From positions 481,529-545,528 of the forward strand of contig NC_013894.1 in NCBI RefSeq assembly GCF_000025605.1: 64,000 nt of DNA, written 5' to 3'. Source of the DNA: Thermocrinis albus DSM 14484. GTDB lineage: Bacteria > Aquificota > Aquificia > Aquificales > Aquificaceae. Under the pieces are notes generated by a model. That model was not told the DNA's origin. It did no database searches and saw only the letters and a list, made by a program, of their open reading frames with translations. Shown piece by piece: positions 10,282 through 16,125 of the stretch; position 1 is the first letter of the stretch; every line of letters starts with the position of its first letter. The translations under genes and the position numbers were made by a program.

Positions 10282-10659
10282 ATGGAGGAGAAGGAGAATT
10301 TTCAAGAAGACACTTCCAGCATGTGGGAACAAGCGTTGAAGGAACAACAGGAAGCGGAAGGGAGACACGGAGAGGGGCAAGGGGATAGTCAGGATCTTTC
10401 CGAGAAAGTAAGGCGCTTCCTGGAGATTCCTTTGGAACTTGAGGTGGTCATAGGACGTACTACTCTTAAGTTGGGAGAACTTCTGCATCTTGGCCCGGGT
10501 TCTGTTGTGGAGTTGGACAACCATGTTGAGTCTCCCGTAGATATACTTGTTAACGGTAAGCTGGTGGCTAAGGGAGAGATAGTGGTGGTGGAAGATAAAT
10601 TCGGTGTCAGGATCACCGATATAATAGCAAGGGAGGAGAGAATAAAGGGGTTTGTGTAG
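10282..10659 (+). CDS. fliN: flagellar motor switch protein FliN
   Basis: 125 residues. The N-terminal ~45 are acidic and Gln-rich, probably disordered. The C-terminal ~75 form the SpoA/FliN domain: FLEIPLELEVVIGRTTLKLGE, then GSVVELD, VDILVNGKLVAKGEIVVVEDKFGVRIT. FliN sits in the cytoplasmic C-ring and, with FliM, responds to CheY-P. No other flagellar structural gene is in the window, so the switch protein is placed with the signalling genes. Its stop codon directly touches the ATG of the next gene, cheZ. Confidence 0.88.
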   Translation: MEEKENFQEDTSSMWEQALKEQQEAEGRHGEGQGDSQDLSEKVRRFLEIPLELEVVIGRTTLKLGELLHLGPGSVVELDNHVESPVDILVNGKLVAKGEIVVVEDKFGVRITDIIAREERIKGFV

Positions 10660-11214
10660 ATGGAAGATCTCAAGAAAATTTTGGCGGAGCTTCTCAGAGA
10701 GATAAGTTTTCTGGAGGCGAAGGTGGATGAGGTAATAAAACCCCTGGAGGAAACCTCCGTCACCCTACCTGCGGCCAGTGAGAGCTTACAGGATGTTATA
10801 ACCTTTACCGAACGTGCGGTAAATCAGGTGGTGGAGCTTTTGGAGGCCATAAACGAGAACTCACAGGTTATAGAGAAGGAGGTGGAGTTTTTGCTAAAGC
10901 TCAGCCCTATTCCCTCCATCGAGAGTAGATTGATAAACGTACGTGAGAGGAACAGGGACAACATCAACAAACTGCTTCAGATCCTGACACTGCTGTCCTT
11001 TCAGGATCTGGCTAGTCAACAGCTTAAGAAGGTTATAAGTACCCTTGAGGAACTTAAAAGGGGTATAATAAAGATCGTTGTAAGCTCCGTGGAGAGGATG
11101 GAGGTTAGTAGAGAACAGAAGGAGAGGATTCTGGGTAAGGCTACGGAGATGTTGACTGGTGACAGGATAAGTCAGACTGATGTTGACGCTCTTCTAAATG
11201 AACTCGGTTTGTAA
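10660..11214 (+). CDS. cheZ: CheZ-type CheY-P phosphatase
   Basis: 184 residues, mostly long helices as in the CheZ four-helix bundle. The catalytic motif is visible as LLSFQDLASQQLKKV (~109-123), where the Gln that attacks CheY-P is expected. The C-terminus, DVDALLNELGL, matches the amphipathic CheY-P-binding tail (family pattern DxDDLLxxLGF). It should shut off the CheY signal at the flagellar motor. It starts with no gap after fliN and lies 12 nt before cheY. Confidence 0.88.
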   Translation: MEDLKKILAELLREISFLEAKVDEVIKPLEETSVTLPAASESLQDVITFTERAVNQVVELLEAINENSQVIEKEVEFLLKLSPIPSIESRLINVRERNRDNINKLLQILTLLSFQDLASQQLKKVISTLEELKRGIIKIVVSSVERMEVSREQKERILGKATEMLTGDRISQTDVDALLNELGL

Positions 11215-11226
11215 GGAGGAAGGTTT

Positions 11227-11616
11227 ATGCCACCGAAGGAAGCCAAATTTCTCGTGGTGGATGATATGAGTACCATGAGAAAGATAGTAAAAACTCTGCT
11301 AAATCAGCTGGGTTATACCAACGTAGATGAGGCAGAGAACGGAAGAGACGCTTTAGCTAAGCTACGCAGCTCTTCCTATGATCTCGTCCTTCTGGACTGG
11401 AACATGCCGGAGATGGATGGTCTGGAACTGTTGAAGGCCATAAGGGCAGATGATAGTCTGAGACATATTCCCGTTATCATGATCACGGCAGAGGCAAAAA
11501 AGGAGAACGTTTTAGCTGCCATACAAGCGGGAGCCAACAATTACATAGTCAAGCCTTTTACTTTAGAGACACTTCGCGATAAGCTAGAGAAAGTGTGGAG
11601 TTCTGTAAACAGGTGA
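11227..11616 (+). CDS. cheY: chemotaxis response regulator CheY
   Basis: A stand-alone receiver domain of 129 residues. It shows the acidic pair [12 protein letters not shown], the phospho-acceptor Asp in [13 protein letters not shown] (~57), the switch Thr in MITAEAK (~87) and the Lys in YIVKPFT (~109). All catalytic residues are present. Phosphorylated by CheA, it should bind FliM/FliN at the motor. It lies 12 nt after cheZ with a strong ribosome-binding site (AAGGAGGAAGG). Confidence 0.95.
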
Positions 11617-11625
11617 GGTATTGGC

Positions 11626-12177
11626 ATGGATGAGCTGGAGCTTCTGAAAGCTGTAAAGGAAGGCTTGGATACATCGTTGAAAGAGATAGAGGACATCTAC
11701 AGAACCCTGAATAACGGTATGCAGATGATAGAAGAGATGTACAGTAGGTTAAAGGAAGAAGAATCGTACATGGAAAGCGTCAAGAAGTTGACGGACCTAC
11801 TGCGTGAAAGATCGAAGGATATAGAGGAGATAACACACATAATAGAGAGTATTTCTGAGCAGACAAACCTCCTCGCTCTGAATGCTGCCATAGAGGCAGC
11901 CAGAGCTGGGGAGCACGGTAGAGGTTTCGCGGTTGTAGCCGATGAGGTGCGTAAGCTTGCCCAGAAGTCCATGGCCTCTGCCAGAGAGATAGGTAAGAAT
12001 CTCAAGGAGATAGGTAAACAGATAAGGGAGCTAAGTCAGGCTATAGACAGAGTGATGGAGAACGTCAAAGAGACCAGTGAACTTTCTGACGATGTGAGAA
12101 CCATTGTAGAACTCATATATGACAGGCTGAGACTGCTGGCTGACAGCTACCAGAAAGTGGCAAATCTTATGAAGTGA
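11626..12177 (+). CDS. short soluble methyl-accepting chemotaxis-type protein
   Basis: 183 residues, all predicted coiled coil, with no membrane segment, HAMP or ligand domain. The hairpin tip is near-canonical: [19 protein letters not shown] followed by [14 protein letters not shown] (~78-112). This is the part of chemoreceptors that binds CheA and CheW. A classical receptor is three times longer. It could be a cytosolic receptor whose sensing happens through its N-terminal helices or through a partner. It sits between cheY and an even smaller receptor-tip gene. Confidence 0.85.
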
Positions 12178-12186
12178 GGTGTTAAC

Positions 12187-12447
12187 ATGAACTTGAGGGA
12201 AGTGGAGGAACAGCTGGAGAGGCTAAAGGAGCTGACGGAGAGCTTGGTAAAAGCCTCAAAACAGACAAATCTACTCGCTCTCAATGCGGTGATTGAGGCG
12301 GCAAGGGTGGGCGAGGCGGGGAAGGGCTTCTCGGTGGTAGCTGCAGAGTTCAGAAAATTAGCTGAGAACTACAACAGAACTGTCGTGGAACTGAGAGATG
12401 CTGTGAGGAAGATAGAGGAGTACCTGAAGAATCTAGGAGAGACATGA
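12187..12447 (+). CDS. minimal chemoreceptor hairpin-tip protein (86 aa)
   Basis: An 86-residue protein made of little more than the receptor tip: [18 protein letters not shown], then [14 protein letters not shown], flanked by about 25 residues of helix on either side. It matches the canonical tip closely, so it should still contact CheA/CheW, but it is too short to sense anything by itself in the usual way. It has a start signal (GAGGTGTTAAC before the ATG) and the cheV ATG is 1 nt past its stop, so it is translated as part of the operon. It may be an array-assembly factor or a decoy; no characterised protein of this size comes to mind. Confidence 0.8.
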
Positions 12448-12448
12448 T

Positions 12449-13393
12449 ATGGAGTACTCCGGCCTGCCGGAAGTTTTGAAAACGGGGTCCAACGAACTTG
12501 AACTGGTTAACTTTCGGATATTTGAAGATAGGCCTGAAGGTCTCTATGCCTGGAACTTTGGGGTAAACGTAGCTAAGGTACGGGAAGTTTTACGTATGCC
12601 TCCTGTAACTAGGTTACCTAATGTCCCTCCAGCGGTGGAGGGTCTGGCAGAGGTAAGGGGGGAGATGATACCGGTGGTAAGCCTTGCCCGTTGGATGGGG
12701 CTGCACGAACCTCCGGAGAGAAAGAAGTACCTCCTACATCTTGAGTTCCTGAGAGAGCATGTGGGTATAGTGGTACACGATGCGAGGAAGATAGTGAGAG
12801 TGTCATGGCAGGAGGTGAGAAGAGCTCCTGAAGGTTTAAACCAGCTTCTGAGGGGGCGTATTACAGGTATTGTAGACGTAGAGGACGGTACTATACTGGT
12901 TCTCGATCTTGAGGGTATAGTCAGTGATATAGGTATATTGAAGGTCTTTGGCATGGAAGAGGTCTCCGAAGGCAGTAAATCGGAAGGTCACTACACCGTT
13001 CTCGTGGTGGAGGACTCTTCGGTGGCCATGAAGATAATAAAGGACATCCTGGAGGGAGCTGGACACAAGGTCATACCCTGTGAGGACGGTGAGGAAGCAT
13101 GGGAGAAGCTTACGCAGTTGCTGGAAAAGGCACAGAGAGAGGGCAAGAACATAAGGGAGTACCTCCAGGTGATCTTCACGGATATAGAGATGCCCCGTAT
13201 GGACGGTCTAACCCTTACCAAGAAGATAAAGGAAACACCAGGTTTGATGCATCTACCTGTAATAGTCAACACTACTCTCTCCGATGAAGCTAATCGTGAG
13301 AAGGCTTTCCTGGTAGGTGCCGATGCTTACCTTGTAAAGTTTGATGCTAGAGAGATGATACAACTGGTAGAGAAACTAGGAAGAGGATCATGA
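12449..13393 (+). CDS. cheV: CheV, CheW-receiver fusion adaptor
   Basis: 314 residues. The N-terminal half is a CheW-like domain (FGVNVAKVREVLRMPPVTRLP, then EVRGEMIPVVSLARWMG). The C-terminal half is a receiver with YTVLVVEDSSVAM and the phospho-acceptor Asp in IFTDIEMPRMDG (~245). CheV couples receptors to CheA and can be phosphorylated to damp signalling. With no CheR/CheB methylation enzymes in sight, it may provide the adaptation. Its end overlaps cheA by 4 nt (ATGA). Confidence 0.93.
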   Translation: MEYSGLPEVLKTGSNELELVNFRIFEDRPEGLYAWNFGVNVAKVREVLRMPPVTRLPNVPPAVEGLAEVRGEMIPVVSLARWMGLHEPPERKKYLLHLEFLREHVGIVVHDARKIVRVSWQEVRRAPEGLNQLLRGRITGIVDVEDGTILVLDLEGIVSDIGILKVFGMEEVSEGSKSEGHYTVLVVEDSSVAMKIIKDILEGAGHKVIPCEDGEEAWEKLTQLLEKAQREGKNIREYLQVIFTDIEMPRMDGLTLTKKIKETPGLMHLPVIVNTTLSDEANREKAFLVGADAYLVKFDAREMIQLVEKLGRGS

Positions 13394-15174
13394 TACCGGA
13401 GGAAATGAGAGAGGTCTTTGAAGAGTTCGTGTTGGAAGCGAAGGAGCATCTAGAGGAGCTTGAGAAAACGCTGTTGCATCTTGAGAAGGTTCCCAACGAT
13501 CTATCCGCTATAAACGCCGCCTTCAGGAGTATGCACACCATAAAGGGAGGTGCATCTTTCCTGGGGCTCACTCCCATAGTGGAAGTAGCCCATGCGGCGG
13601 AAGATGTGCTGAGTAAGGCAAGAGAGGGGAGCCTGCACCTCACATCTACCACAACGGACCTCCTCTTGAAAAGCGTAGATTTTATAAGATCGGCCCTAGA
13701 GGCGTATGTGGAGGGTAAGCCTGTCAGTGATTACGGTGAGTTACTAAAAGCACTACGTCATCAAGAAGAGACAAAGCTAGAGGAAAGGCCATCACTGGAT
13801 AAACTTCTGGAGAAGTATGGACTATCCCACCTGAAGGGAAGACCTGTTGAGGAGCTTCTGGAAGAAGTGGTGTTAATGCCTCCCGATAGACGACCAACCG
13901 AGCTCATAGCCGCTCTAGAGGAAGCTCTACATGGGGAGTCGGAGGATGTACCGGAAAAAGGGGAGCAGGTGCCTCCTCCCTCGCAGAGTAAGGAGGAGGG
14001 GGAGAGAGTTCTCAGGATAGACGTTCAGAAGGTGGAGACCCTTATGAACCTCGTAGGAGAGCTTGTTCTGGAAAGGAACAGACTTCTGCGTATAATGCAG
14101 GCCATGATGGAGGAGGGTCTATCCAGAAGAGTGGAAGAGTTGGAGTCGGTAGTATCTTCCATAGACAGAATCGTAGGGGATCTTCAGCTGGCGGTTATGA
14201 AGACACGTATGCAGCCTGTCAGAAAGCTCTTCCAAAAATTTCCCCGTGTAGTAAGAGACCTGTCAAGAGCACTGGGCAAGGAGGTCGTCCTCATAACAGA
14301 GGGAGAGGATACCGAGATGGATAAATCCCTTATAGAGAGACTAGAGGATCCTCTCATACATCTGGTAAGAAATGCGGTAGATCACGGTATAGAGTACCCA
14401 GAGGAGAGGGAACGCTTAGGTAAGCCGAGGGAGGGACGAGTCCTTCTGAAGGCCTACTACCAGGGAGACAGGGTTTACATATCGGTGGAGGACGATGGTA
14501 GAGGTATAGATGTGGACAGGGTGAAGGAAAAAGCTCTGGAAAAGGGAATAGTTTCCAGAGAGAGGTTGGAAAAACTGACGGACAAGGAGGTACTCTCCCT
14601 CATATTCAGTCCCGGTTTCTCCACAGCTGATCATGTGTCAGAGGTATCCGGGAGGGGTGTGGGTATGGATGTGGTTCTCAGTACCGTCACCAGCTTCAGG
14701 GGTACAGTGGACATAGCCAGTGAGAGGGGGAAAGGGACAAAGGTAGTTATGAGCTTTCCCCTAACGGTGGGAATAATAAAATCCTTAATAGTGAAGGTAG
14801 GGGATCGCCTCTTTGCCATACCCATACACTCAGTGTTGGAGATAGTGAGCGCGGATTCTGCAGAGATATCTCACGTTTCCGGTGAAGAGGTACTGATCCT
14901 TAGGGGTAACACTATTCCGTTGTTACATTTGTCTGAGATTCTAGGCATGGAGAGGAGACATGTGGGGTTTATAGTGGTGGCCTTAGCTGGAAACAGGAGG
15001 GTGGCCTTTGGGGTGGATGACCTTTTGGGAGACGAGGAGGTGGTCATAAAACCACTGGGAAAGCTGTTTGGTGAGATAGAGGGTATATCGGGAGCCACCA
15101 TTACGGGAGATGGTAGTGTTGTCTTGATACTAGATCCCGTGGGTATCGTGAAGAGGACGGTAGGTATGCTCTGA
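13390..15174 (+). CDS. cheA: chemotaxis histidine kinase CheA
   Basis: 594 residues, a little shorter than usual. The domains are: HPt (P1) with the phosphorylated His in MHTIKGGASFLG (~48); a linker with a short helical segment in place of a full CheY-binding P2; the P3 dimerisation helices (LMNLVGELVLERNRL, ~219); the P4 kinase with its N-box (LVRNAVDHGIEYP) and G-boxes (VEDDGRGID, GRGVGMDVV); and the P5 CheW-like domain to the end. It phosphorylates CheY and CheV. It starts inside the last codons of cheV and is followed 10 nt later by cheW. Confidence 0.95.
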   Translation: MIPEEMREVFEEFVLEAKEHLEELEKTLLHLEKVPNDLSAINAAFRSMHTIKGGASFLGLTPIVEVAHAAEDVLSKAREGSLHLTSTTTDLLLKSVDFIRSALEAYVEGKPVSDYGELLKALRHQEETKLEERPSLDKLLEKYGLSHLKGRPVEELLEEVVLMPPDRRPTELIAALEEALHGESEDVPEKGEQVPPPSQSKEEGERVLRIDVQKVETLMNLVGELVLERNRLLRIMQAMMEEGLSRRVEELESVVSSIDRIVGDLQLAVMKTRMQPVRKLFQKFPRVVRDLSRALGKEVVLITEGEDTEMDKSLIERLEDPLIHLVRNAVDHGIEYPEERERLGKPREGRVLLKAYYQGDRVYISVEDDGRGIDVDRVKEKALEKGIVSRERLEKLTDKEVLSLIFSPGFSTADHVSEVSGRGVGMDVVLSTVTSFRGTVDIASERGKGTKVVMSFPLTVGIIKSLIVKVGDRLFAIPIHSVLEIVSADSAEISHVSGEEVLILRGNTIPLLHLSEILGMERRHVGFIVVALAGNRRVAFGVDDLLGDEEVVIKPLGKLFGEIEGISGATITGDGSVVLILDPVGIVKRTVGML

Positions 15175-15184
15175 GGTAAGTACT

Positions 15185-15643
15185 ATGAACATAGTGCTCC
15201 ATAAGGACAAGAATCAGCTGGAGAAGGTCACCCACATGTACGAACTTCTTGCCTTTTATCTGGAGGGGGAGCTGTTCGGTGTACCTTTGAGGAAGGTACT
15301 GGAGGTGTCCAGGATGGTACCTATAGTACCCGTGCCCTTCTCCCCCACTTACGTAAAGGGTGTCATAAATGTGAGAGGGGAGATACTACCCGTCGTGGAT
15401 CTCAAAGGTCCACTTCGCATGAAGAGAACAAGGGAGGAGAACCGCATAGTTCTTTTAGAAACGGAAAGAGGTAAAGTGGGTGTCCTGGTGGACGAAGTGG
15501 TAGGCGTTATGAGGGTAGAGGAGCAGAGGTTCGAACCAAACCCCATGGTGGGTAGGTACAGTGAGTTTGTGGAGAAGGTAGCTTACCTGAAGGAGGGTCT
15601 GCTCTGTCTTCTGGAGATGGATAGGATAATAAACTCTCTATGA
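15185..15643 (+). CDS. cheW: CheW coupling protein
   Basis: 152 residues, a single CheW domain: ELLAFYLEGELFGVPLRKV, EVSRMVPIVPVP, KGVINVRGEILPVVDL and VGVLVDEVVGVMRV. It links receptor tips to CheA. The ATG at 15185 is preceded by GAGGTAAG and is preferred over the internal ATG at 15236, although the extra N-terminal 17 residues are not conserved CheW sequence. Its stop overlaps the next gene, a J-domain protein, by 4 nt. Confidence 0.93.
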   Translation: MNIVLHKDKNQLEKVTHMYELLAFYLEGELFGVPLRKVLEVSRMVPIVPVPFSPTYVKGVINVRGEILPVVDLKGPLRMKRTREENRIVLLETERGKVGVLVDEVVGVMRVEEQRFEPNPMVGRYSEFVEKVAYLKEGLLCLLEMDRIINSL

Positions 15644-16125
15644 GGAACTTTTACATAAAGGTACTGGACTACCTGTTGGAAAAGAGACTGGAAGCCTTTC
15701 AAGCCCACTTCTTCCAACTAAATAGGAACTTCGGTGACAACGTGGATAGGTTCATAAGGGTATGGTTTGAGGGTTACATACTGAAGAGACTCATCCAGCA
15801 CTTTCCCCTTTCCGATATAGTGGAGCATTACCCATCTTATATGAGAAGAAAGAGACAGCTTATAAGATCCTACGTGGCTACTTACTGGAGCTTTTGTAAG
15901 AGACCCTATAGGTTCCCTACAAAAGTGACAGAATCCTTACGGTTCTTTGGTCTCGATACTTTAGACGAGGCAAAACTCAGAAAAGCCTACAGACAGATGG
16001 TACTCAAATATCATCCTGACAGGTACGGTAACAGAGAGGAGGCTCACAGGCGGATGGTACTCATCAATTACCACTACCAGGTACTGCTAAGCTATCTCTC
16101 GCGTCTAAGGAATGATCCAGTGTAG
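15640..16125 (+). CDS. J-domain protein at the end of the chemotaxis operon
   Basis: 161 residues. The first ~105 are basic and helical and I do not recognise them. The last ~55 are a J domain: FFGLDTLDEAKLRKAYRQM, then the diagnostic KYHPDRYG with the HPD tripeptide that stimulates Hsp70 ATPase. It overlaps cheW by 4 nt and so belongs to the same operon; the link of a DnaK co-chaperone to chemotaxis is unusual. The last 62 nt overlap the 3' end of the convergent flavin oxidoreductase gene. Confidence 0.82.
   Translation: MRNFYIKVLDYLLEKRLEAFQAHFFQLNRNFGDNVDRFIRVWFEGYILKRLIQHFPLSDIVEHYPSYMRRKRQLIRSYVATYWSFCKRPYRFPTKVTESLRFFGLDTLDEAKLRKAYRQMVLKYHPDRYGNREEAHRRMVLINYHYQVLLSYLSRLRNDPV

Follow-up and report, generated by a model that had tools for sequence, protein, structure and literature searches.

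A stand-alone receptor-tip protein linked to cheV and cheA in Aquificales: a candidate non-sensing subunit of chemosensory arrays

The methylation region of chemoreceptors is located above the Gly hinge, and the best PDB relatives, by sequence, of the short protein described in this work are two receptor chains, 4jpb_B (90 aa) and 3ur1_C (85 aa), both of which we take to be engineered laboratory truncations, the former presumably within a receptor–CheA–CheW complex. Entry 3UR1 is described as Thermotoga CheW with CheA P4P5 (PMC7666581). One study gives the distance from the receptor tip to the Gly hinge as 75 Å, and the receptor classes stated there range from 12 to 32 paired heptads (PMC6628036). 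In TM1143, residues L362, L365, N366 and A368 were reported as important for the interaction with CheW/P5 (PMC5706961), and trimer contacts of NpHtrII/Tsr were listed in a figure legend (PMC8144572). For CheV, two roles have been proposed, namely that of an adaptor serving particular receptors and that of a phosphate sink protecting against over-stimulation (PMC4742279).

Thermocrinis albus HI 11/12T is described as motile, with a monopolar flagellum (PMC3035279), and a flagellin is present in the genome studied here, which consists of one contig of 1,500,577 bases and is 100% complete. The stretch analysed, referred to as the window, comprises 64,000 nucleotides of this contig (481529–545528), and it contains, all on the forward strand and in this order, genes for a fliN-like switch protein (10282..10659), a cheZ-like phosphatase (10660..11214), cheY (11227..11616), a 183-aa cytoplasmic receptor signalling domain (11626..12177), a stand-alone receptor-tip protein of 86 aa (12187..12447, denoted here as the tip), cheV (CheW domain plus receiver, 12449..13393), cheA (13390..15174), which gives the sole CheA match in the genome, and cheW (15185..15643), followed by a DnaJ-domain gene (~160 aa, 15640–16125). 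A match to this DnaJ-domain protein was also found among the che genes in 14 of the 20 fetched tip-containing regions, and it is possible that it serves as a co-chaperone for the array.

The first indication that the tip was a genuine protein came from an earlier note on this DNA, made from the sequence alone, which described an 86-residue product consisting almost only of the chemoreceptor signalling tip and preserved within the operon with proper translation signals. Both points stand. The ORF (12187–12447, forward strand) contains the two motifs quoted in that note, and it matches Pfam MCPsignal (PF00015) from residue 3 to 78 (8.4e-21, 75 bits), well above the curated cut-off of 34.6 for an MCP signalling domain. 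A ribosome-binding-like GAGGTG (12176..12181, +) is placed 5 nt before the ATG, the ATG of cheV begins 1 nt after the stop codon of the tip, and relatives keep the gene. Because an in-frame TGA starts at 12175, 12 nt 5' of the ATG, the frame has no room for a far upstream extension.

The match covers just positions 25–100 of the 172 in the PF00015 profile, short of a full-length domain, and it forms one stretch, so that the two signalling units per chain that characterise natural single-chain receptors are not found in the tip. The turn glutamate is E43, with 42 residues on its N-terminal side and 43 on its C-terminal side, which corrects the earlier note, where the helix on each side was put at about 25 residues. 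In contrast, that note was right that no sensory, membrane or HAMP segment exists, the 86 aa being a single hairpin. An AlphaFold2 model, built from a 30-row alignment (mean pLDDT 94.5, pTM 0.75), shows an unbroken helix assignment for residues 3–85. In Foldseek searches, which returned just two matches at E ≤ 0.001, the model superposed over 81–82 columns on the crystal structure 3g67_A (TM 0.89, rmsd 1.0) and on the integrative model 9a72_A (TM 0.91, rmsd 1.0), while the fit to 2ch7_A, 1qu7 and 6s1k_E was poorer (TM 0.73–0.76, rmsd 3.5–4.2). Since the model fits receptor hairpins over 81–82 columns, the tip is predicted to fold as an α-hairpin. Its arms would correspond to ~6 paired heptads, or ~63 Å at 10.5 Å each, which leaves it outside the known classes of 12 to 32 heptads and, judged by length alone, without a Gly hinge or methylation region. 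No family specific to the tip was present among the matches listed for Pfam and NCBIfam, and no description of a stand-alone tip protein was found in the literature covered, subscription papers and preprints lying largely outside that coverage.

The distribution of the protein confirmed that the tip ORF is not a chance frame, because intact short homologues are present at the equivalent position of 33 further genomes; a search for such short tip proteins in Aquificae had been proposed in the earlier note. Altogether, 34 intact short homologues in 112 Aquificales genomes were found among the matches listed, in addition to one that is damaged (G078) and another that is interrupted (G101). All short tips except that of G101 scored at least 118 bits with the tip profile, and the next matches listed were long receptors, at 105.5 bits or below; to say that a genome lacks the tip thus means only that no match of at least 118 bits is among those listed for it. 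In the wider phylum (136 genomes), no match at the tip level was listed outside Aquificales. Within this order, tips occur in genera g1, g3, g5, g7, g10 and g11 of family f1, and g16, g20 and g21 of family f2. A contig scan gave a similar picture: in the best 80 of 570 relatives, a short frame was observed at 4 loci, all of Aquificales, and at the other 76 the best-matching frame had at least 272 aa, although the scan, having been seeded with tip-type peptides, would overlook any short tips from elsewhere that carry ordinary receptor residues. Phage records with a match amounted to 51, and plasmid records to 4318. The one phage match examined (L218, 1687–3519, from the 290-kb Vibrio phage vB_VmeM-Yong XC31) is a receptor-signalling-like stretch with 44% identity to the tip, but it lies within a 1833-base CDS, annotated as hypothetical, and therefore is no tip.

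A second observation concerns the neighbours of the gene. For every one of the 35 distinct short frames, a cheV match comes next on the downstream side (with the broken cheV of G078, the match starts ~300 nt after the tip), and the tip and CheA share a contig, ~2 kb apart, in 34 of the 35, the pair in G061 being on two contigs. In a map of 21 regions (the window and 20 fetched ones), tip, cheV and cheA were consecutive in 20, including G078, where the genes are broken, and G097, with a split cheA; the 21st region is that of G101. The CheA type linked to the tip is found in 39 genomes (32 in f1 and 7 in f2), 35 of which have a tip (34 intact, and the damaged one of G078), and in the remaining four (G008, G011, G019 and G021) the contig ends inside cheA, inside cheV or 64 nt ahead of cheV. 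No tip was detected in the mapped stretch of 13 examined loci with a different operon order (cheZ-cheA-cheW-(mcp)-cheV-cheY or near). The tip is thus not generally required, given the Aquificota that have another che order and no tip-level match.

While cheV and cheA are constant neighbours, the gene upstream of the tip is variable: it may encode a cytoplasmic receptor of ~270–300 aa or a receptor frame of 401–666 aa, or it may be a gene on the opposite strand. This variability led to the rejection, as a general rule, of the notion that the tip is tied to the 183-aa neighbour, and for the same reason the mixed trimer specifically with that protein, put forward in the earlier note, is unsupported in general. 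The note had also proposed that one long receptor gene at this place in relatives would reveal both pieces as remnants of a broken gene; what relatives have instead is a separate receptor or other gene plus a separate tip.

The tip decays where the che genes decay. In G078, where cheA and cheV are in pieces, the tip lacks a start codon, and in G101, a genome in which CheA was not found, the tip frame continues, close to the end of a contig, into unrelated DNA. Three further genomes (G030, G046 and G047) keep receptor matches and have neither a CheA match nor a tip-level match, their best matches to the tip profile (3.5e-25, 2.0e-8 and 4.1e-23, respectively) being far under that level. The che locus of G078 (L102, 1338–7189) is fragmented in a genome rated 99% complete, and both decay and assembly error fit. 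In G101 (L107, 5859–6147), the break in the tip comes after VASE, and the unrelated DNA that interrupts it may be insertion-sequence-like. Finally, in G097 (L104, 7545–9503) cheA is apparently split by a stop into frames of 267 and 380 aa, and the tip is intact.

The shortness of the tip, together with the fact that the adjoining 183-aa receptor is devoid of the N-terminal part found in relatives, could suggest that the gene is what is left of a longer receptor that broke, preserved by chance. However, phylogeny and selection make this very improbable. In a tree of 81 rows and 77 columns, 30 tips were separated from 51 receptors by a long branch with 100/100 support, the short alignment leaving the inner forks weak; the tips form one clade across two families. 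Twelve tip pairs were compared for selection, and dN/dS was 0.017–0.071 in seven of them (two with dS > 2, and therefore rough). It was 0 in one further pair, identical in amino acids, and could not be calculated for four whose synonymous sites were saturated, among them the pair formed by the window and G055. Between the latter two, identity is 71% for the tip, 75% for CheV, 72% for CheA and 56% for CheW. A broken-gene remnant was consequently rejected on the basis of the single clade, the 34 intact genes (among the matches listed) with low dN/dS, the separate receptor and tip of relatives, and the existence of tip-only residues, as K25 or F55 was found in 0 of 64 long receptors.

These residues belong to a conserved interaction region that extends from K25 to R56 (codons 25–56, 12259..12354, +). 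By our own correspondence, L29, L32, N33 and position 35 of the tip are equivalent to L362, L365, N366 and A368 of TM1143, respectively. The first three are found in 35 of 35 tips and A35 in 31, the window tip being among the four with V35, which means that it keeps three of the four CheW/P5-binding residues. Binding to CheA and CheW, one of the tests named in the earlier note, would hence be possible in principle, judging from the positions kept. Likewise, Q26, E37, R40, F48 and R56, which correspond to the NpHtrII/Tsr trimer contacts, are kept in all 35 tips.

Other positions distinguish the tips from receptors, these being the 64 that fit a motif pattern in the fetched Aquificota loci, rather than all receptors (35 tips and 64 receptors with the broader pattern; other sets had 26 and 38, or 30 and 51; the frame of G078, L102, is included in the count of 35, and in the tree, despite its absent start codon). 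Position 25 is K in all tips, while the receptors have E (48), D (10), N (5) or Q (1). Position 55 is F in all tips, as opposed to V (60) or I (4). Position 22 is K or R in all tips and in none of the receptors, and position 53, acidic in the receptors (D in 59, E in 5), is never so in tips. In contrast, V41, common to the 35 tips, is not exclusive to them (A in 61 receptors, V in 2 and L in 1). On the assumption of a hairpin symmetric about residue 43, position 25 faces position 61 (25 + 61 = 86), and this pair is acid–base in 58 of 64 receptors, whereas in tips the K at 25 faces N, D, S or I. The 22–64 pair is basic–basic in 30 of 30 tips and acid–K in 26 of 51 receptors. It is therefore likely, as far as aligned residues can tell, that one or two salt-bridge layers were turned into an unpaired basic patch beside the trimer and CheA-contact positions. 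The partner of this patch may be the acid at position 25 of a neighbouring receptor in mixed trimers (the 183-aa receptor has E at this position), the P3 domain of CheA, or CheV. Nevertheless, K25 adjoins the contact of Q26 with R56' of a neighbour and might repel rather than attract, so that the altered charge does not in itself establish mixed trimers.

The same residues can be integrated into a different model, in which the tip would act as a titrant or chain terminator, competing with real receptors for CheA P5/CheW and lowering array size or kinase activity. A protein that keeps the CheA/CheW-binding residues and is devoid of sensory parts would suit such a role, and the basic positions 22, 25, 57 and 64 are close to residues for which contacts with CheA P3/P4 have been reported (PMC6746300), R379 and K390 of TM1143 being equivalent, by our own correspondence, to K46 and K57 of the tip. 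However, the trimer-contact residues are kept as well, although a protein that did no more than compete could do without them. In addition, and from study titles, Tsr fragments are said to signal constitutively and soluble receptor trimers reportedly activate CheA, which also argues against titration. We thus regard this model as quite unlikely.

The explanation we prefer, to which we would give about an even chance, is that the tip is a dedicated non-sensing receptor subunit that occupies receptor sites in CheA/CheW/CheV arrays and sets assembly and basal kinase activity. The computed features on which it draws are the predicted fold, the conservation of the gene, the single clade, the linkage to cheV–cheA, the kept binding and trimer-contact residues and the substitutions fixed in tips. 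According to this model, the tip would dimerise and, as a dimeric hairpin, take receptor positions at the array baseplate, where its dimers would probably join longer receptors in mixed trimers of dimers. In this place it would bind and promote the assembly of CheA–CheW(–CheV) rings and set the level of ligand-independent kinase activity. Its steady partner would be the cheV–cheA pair and no single receptor. The phosphate-sink and adaptor role proposed for CheV would fit a constitutive tip. Receptors that differ in length, however, reportedly sort into arrays of their own (PMC6628036), an argument against mixed trimers.

Alternatively, the tip could be a dedicated partner of CheV, either docking (phospho-)CheV in the array or keeping CheV off the receptors, as part of a methylation-independent adaptation module. 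The constant cheV match downstream (35 of 35 frames, broken in G078) and the 1-nt gap in the window favour this notion, as do the proposed adaptor function of CheV for particular receptors and the cheV–mcp adjacency in two genomes noted in an Enterobacteriales study (PMC4742279), the binding of phospho-mimetic CheV to a subset of receptors (PMC12691637), and the absence of CheR and CheB matches from the T. albus genome. Moreover, at CheV position 68, E is found in each of the 28 type-A sequences (of 33) that have a residue in this column, and K in all 13 of type B. This is, however, one of 13 CheV columns that contrast by operon type (27 in CheA and 4 in CheW), all confounded with phylogeny and hence a hint only. 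Furthermore, the linkage to CheA is equally constant, the other operon type has CheV but lacks the tip, and CheR matches are found in tip-containing genomes of g3, g5, g7, g10 and g11. Considering these facts, a dedicated CheV partner appears rather unlikely. The CheR matches of those five genera also show that the tip is not, in general, a substitute for CheR/CheB adaptation, and that candidate was discarded; tip-containing genomes with no CheR match are that of T. albus, G055, G020, G039, G077 and others.

Returning to the array-subunit model, the chemosensory complement of T. albus gives it a particular setting. The genome has only two PF00015 matches, the tip and the 183-aa receptor (a very divergent receptor could escape this search), and zero matches for CheR and CheB. 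In the tree, the closest neighbour of the 183-aa receptor is a 304-aa cytoplasmic receptor from a different genus (support 100/99), both within a group of seven (97/91); the 183-aa receptor is without the ~100-residue N-terminal part found in this relative. A PAS_8 match in this part was obtained for L110 alone among L096, L099, L100 and L110 (1.6e-5, 25.1 bits, cut-off 21.8), and the 304-aa receptor gave no PAS domain match, so that the label "PAS-like" for its N-terminal part rests on its alignment with L110. No sensor domain was recognisable in either of the two MCPsignal proteins of T. albus. Tentatively, these data could be integrated with the former by assuming that many Aquificales possess a third, obligate array subunit, a non-sensing receptor co-translated with CheV, whose charge-reversed contact face would favour mixed assemblies with sensing receptors, and that in T. 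albus the system has been reduced to two hairpins without recognisable sensor domain or methylation enzymes, so that input signals would have to enter at the level of the coiled coils, of CheV or of the kinase itself. With two hairpins and no sensor domain, such a thermophile would provide structural studies with a minimal chemosensory system. If the tip is an array subunit, this protein would offer a direct test of what a tip alone does: ring assembly, kinase activation or gain setting.

Compared with known systems, the tip is built from the MCP signalling domain (PF00015) and is not a new fold: it shares with it the hairpin fold, the turn glutamate, and the CheW/P5-binding and trimer-contact residues, but it lacks methylation helices, hinge, HAMP, membrane and sensory parts, and it differs in the basic position 22, K25, V41, F55 and the lack of an acid at 53. 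Its length is roughly half that of the shortest class found stated in PMC6628036. The cytoplasmic receptor 3g67 of Thermotoga maritima (213 aa) is also soluble and has no membrane part, and its hairpin superposes on that of the tip at an rmsd of 1.0, although it is more than twice as long. Natural single-chain receptors are described as soluble signalling domains of unknown role, as is the tip, but they resemble constructs with two subunits in one chain (PMC4692393), while the tip has one short hairpin per chain. The AIF domain of Vibrio ParP, which is reported to be non-sensing, to insert into core units and to promote array formation, is similar in its role to what is proposed here for the tip; yet it has a CheW-like fold that binds receptor tips (PMC5706961), whereas the 86-aa protein is the tip itself. 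In extent, the Thermotoga maritima receptor fragments 3ur1 (85 aa) and 4jpb (90 aa) have hairpins nearly equal to that of the tip. The latter, in contrast, is a natural, conserved gene with residues of its own, and evolution has thus preserved roughly the minimal fragment that crystallographers excised to study receptor complexes.
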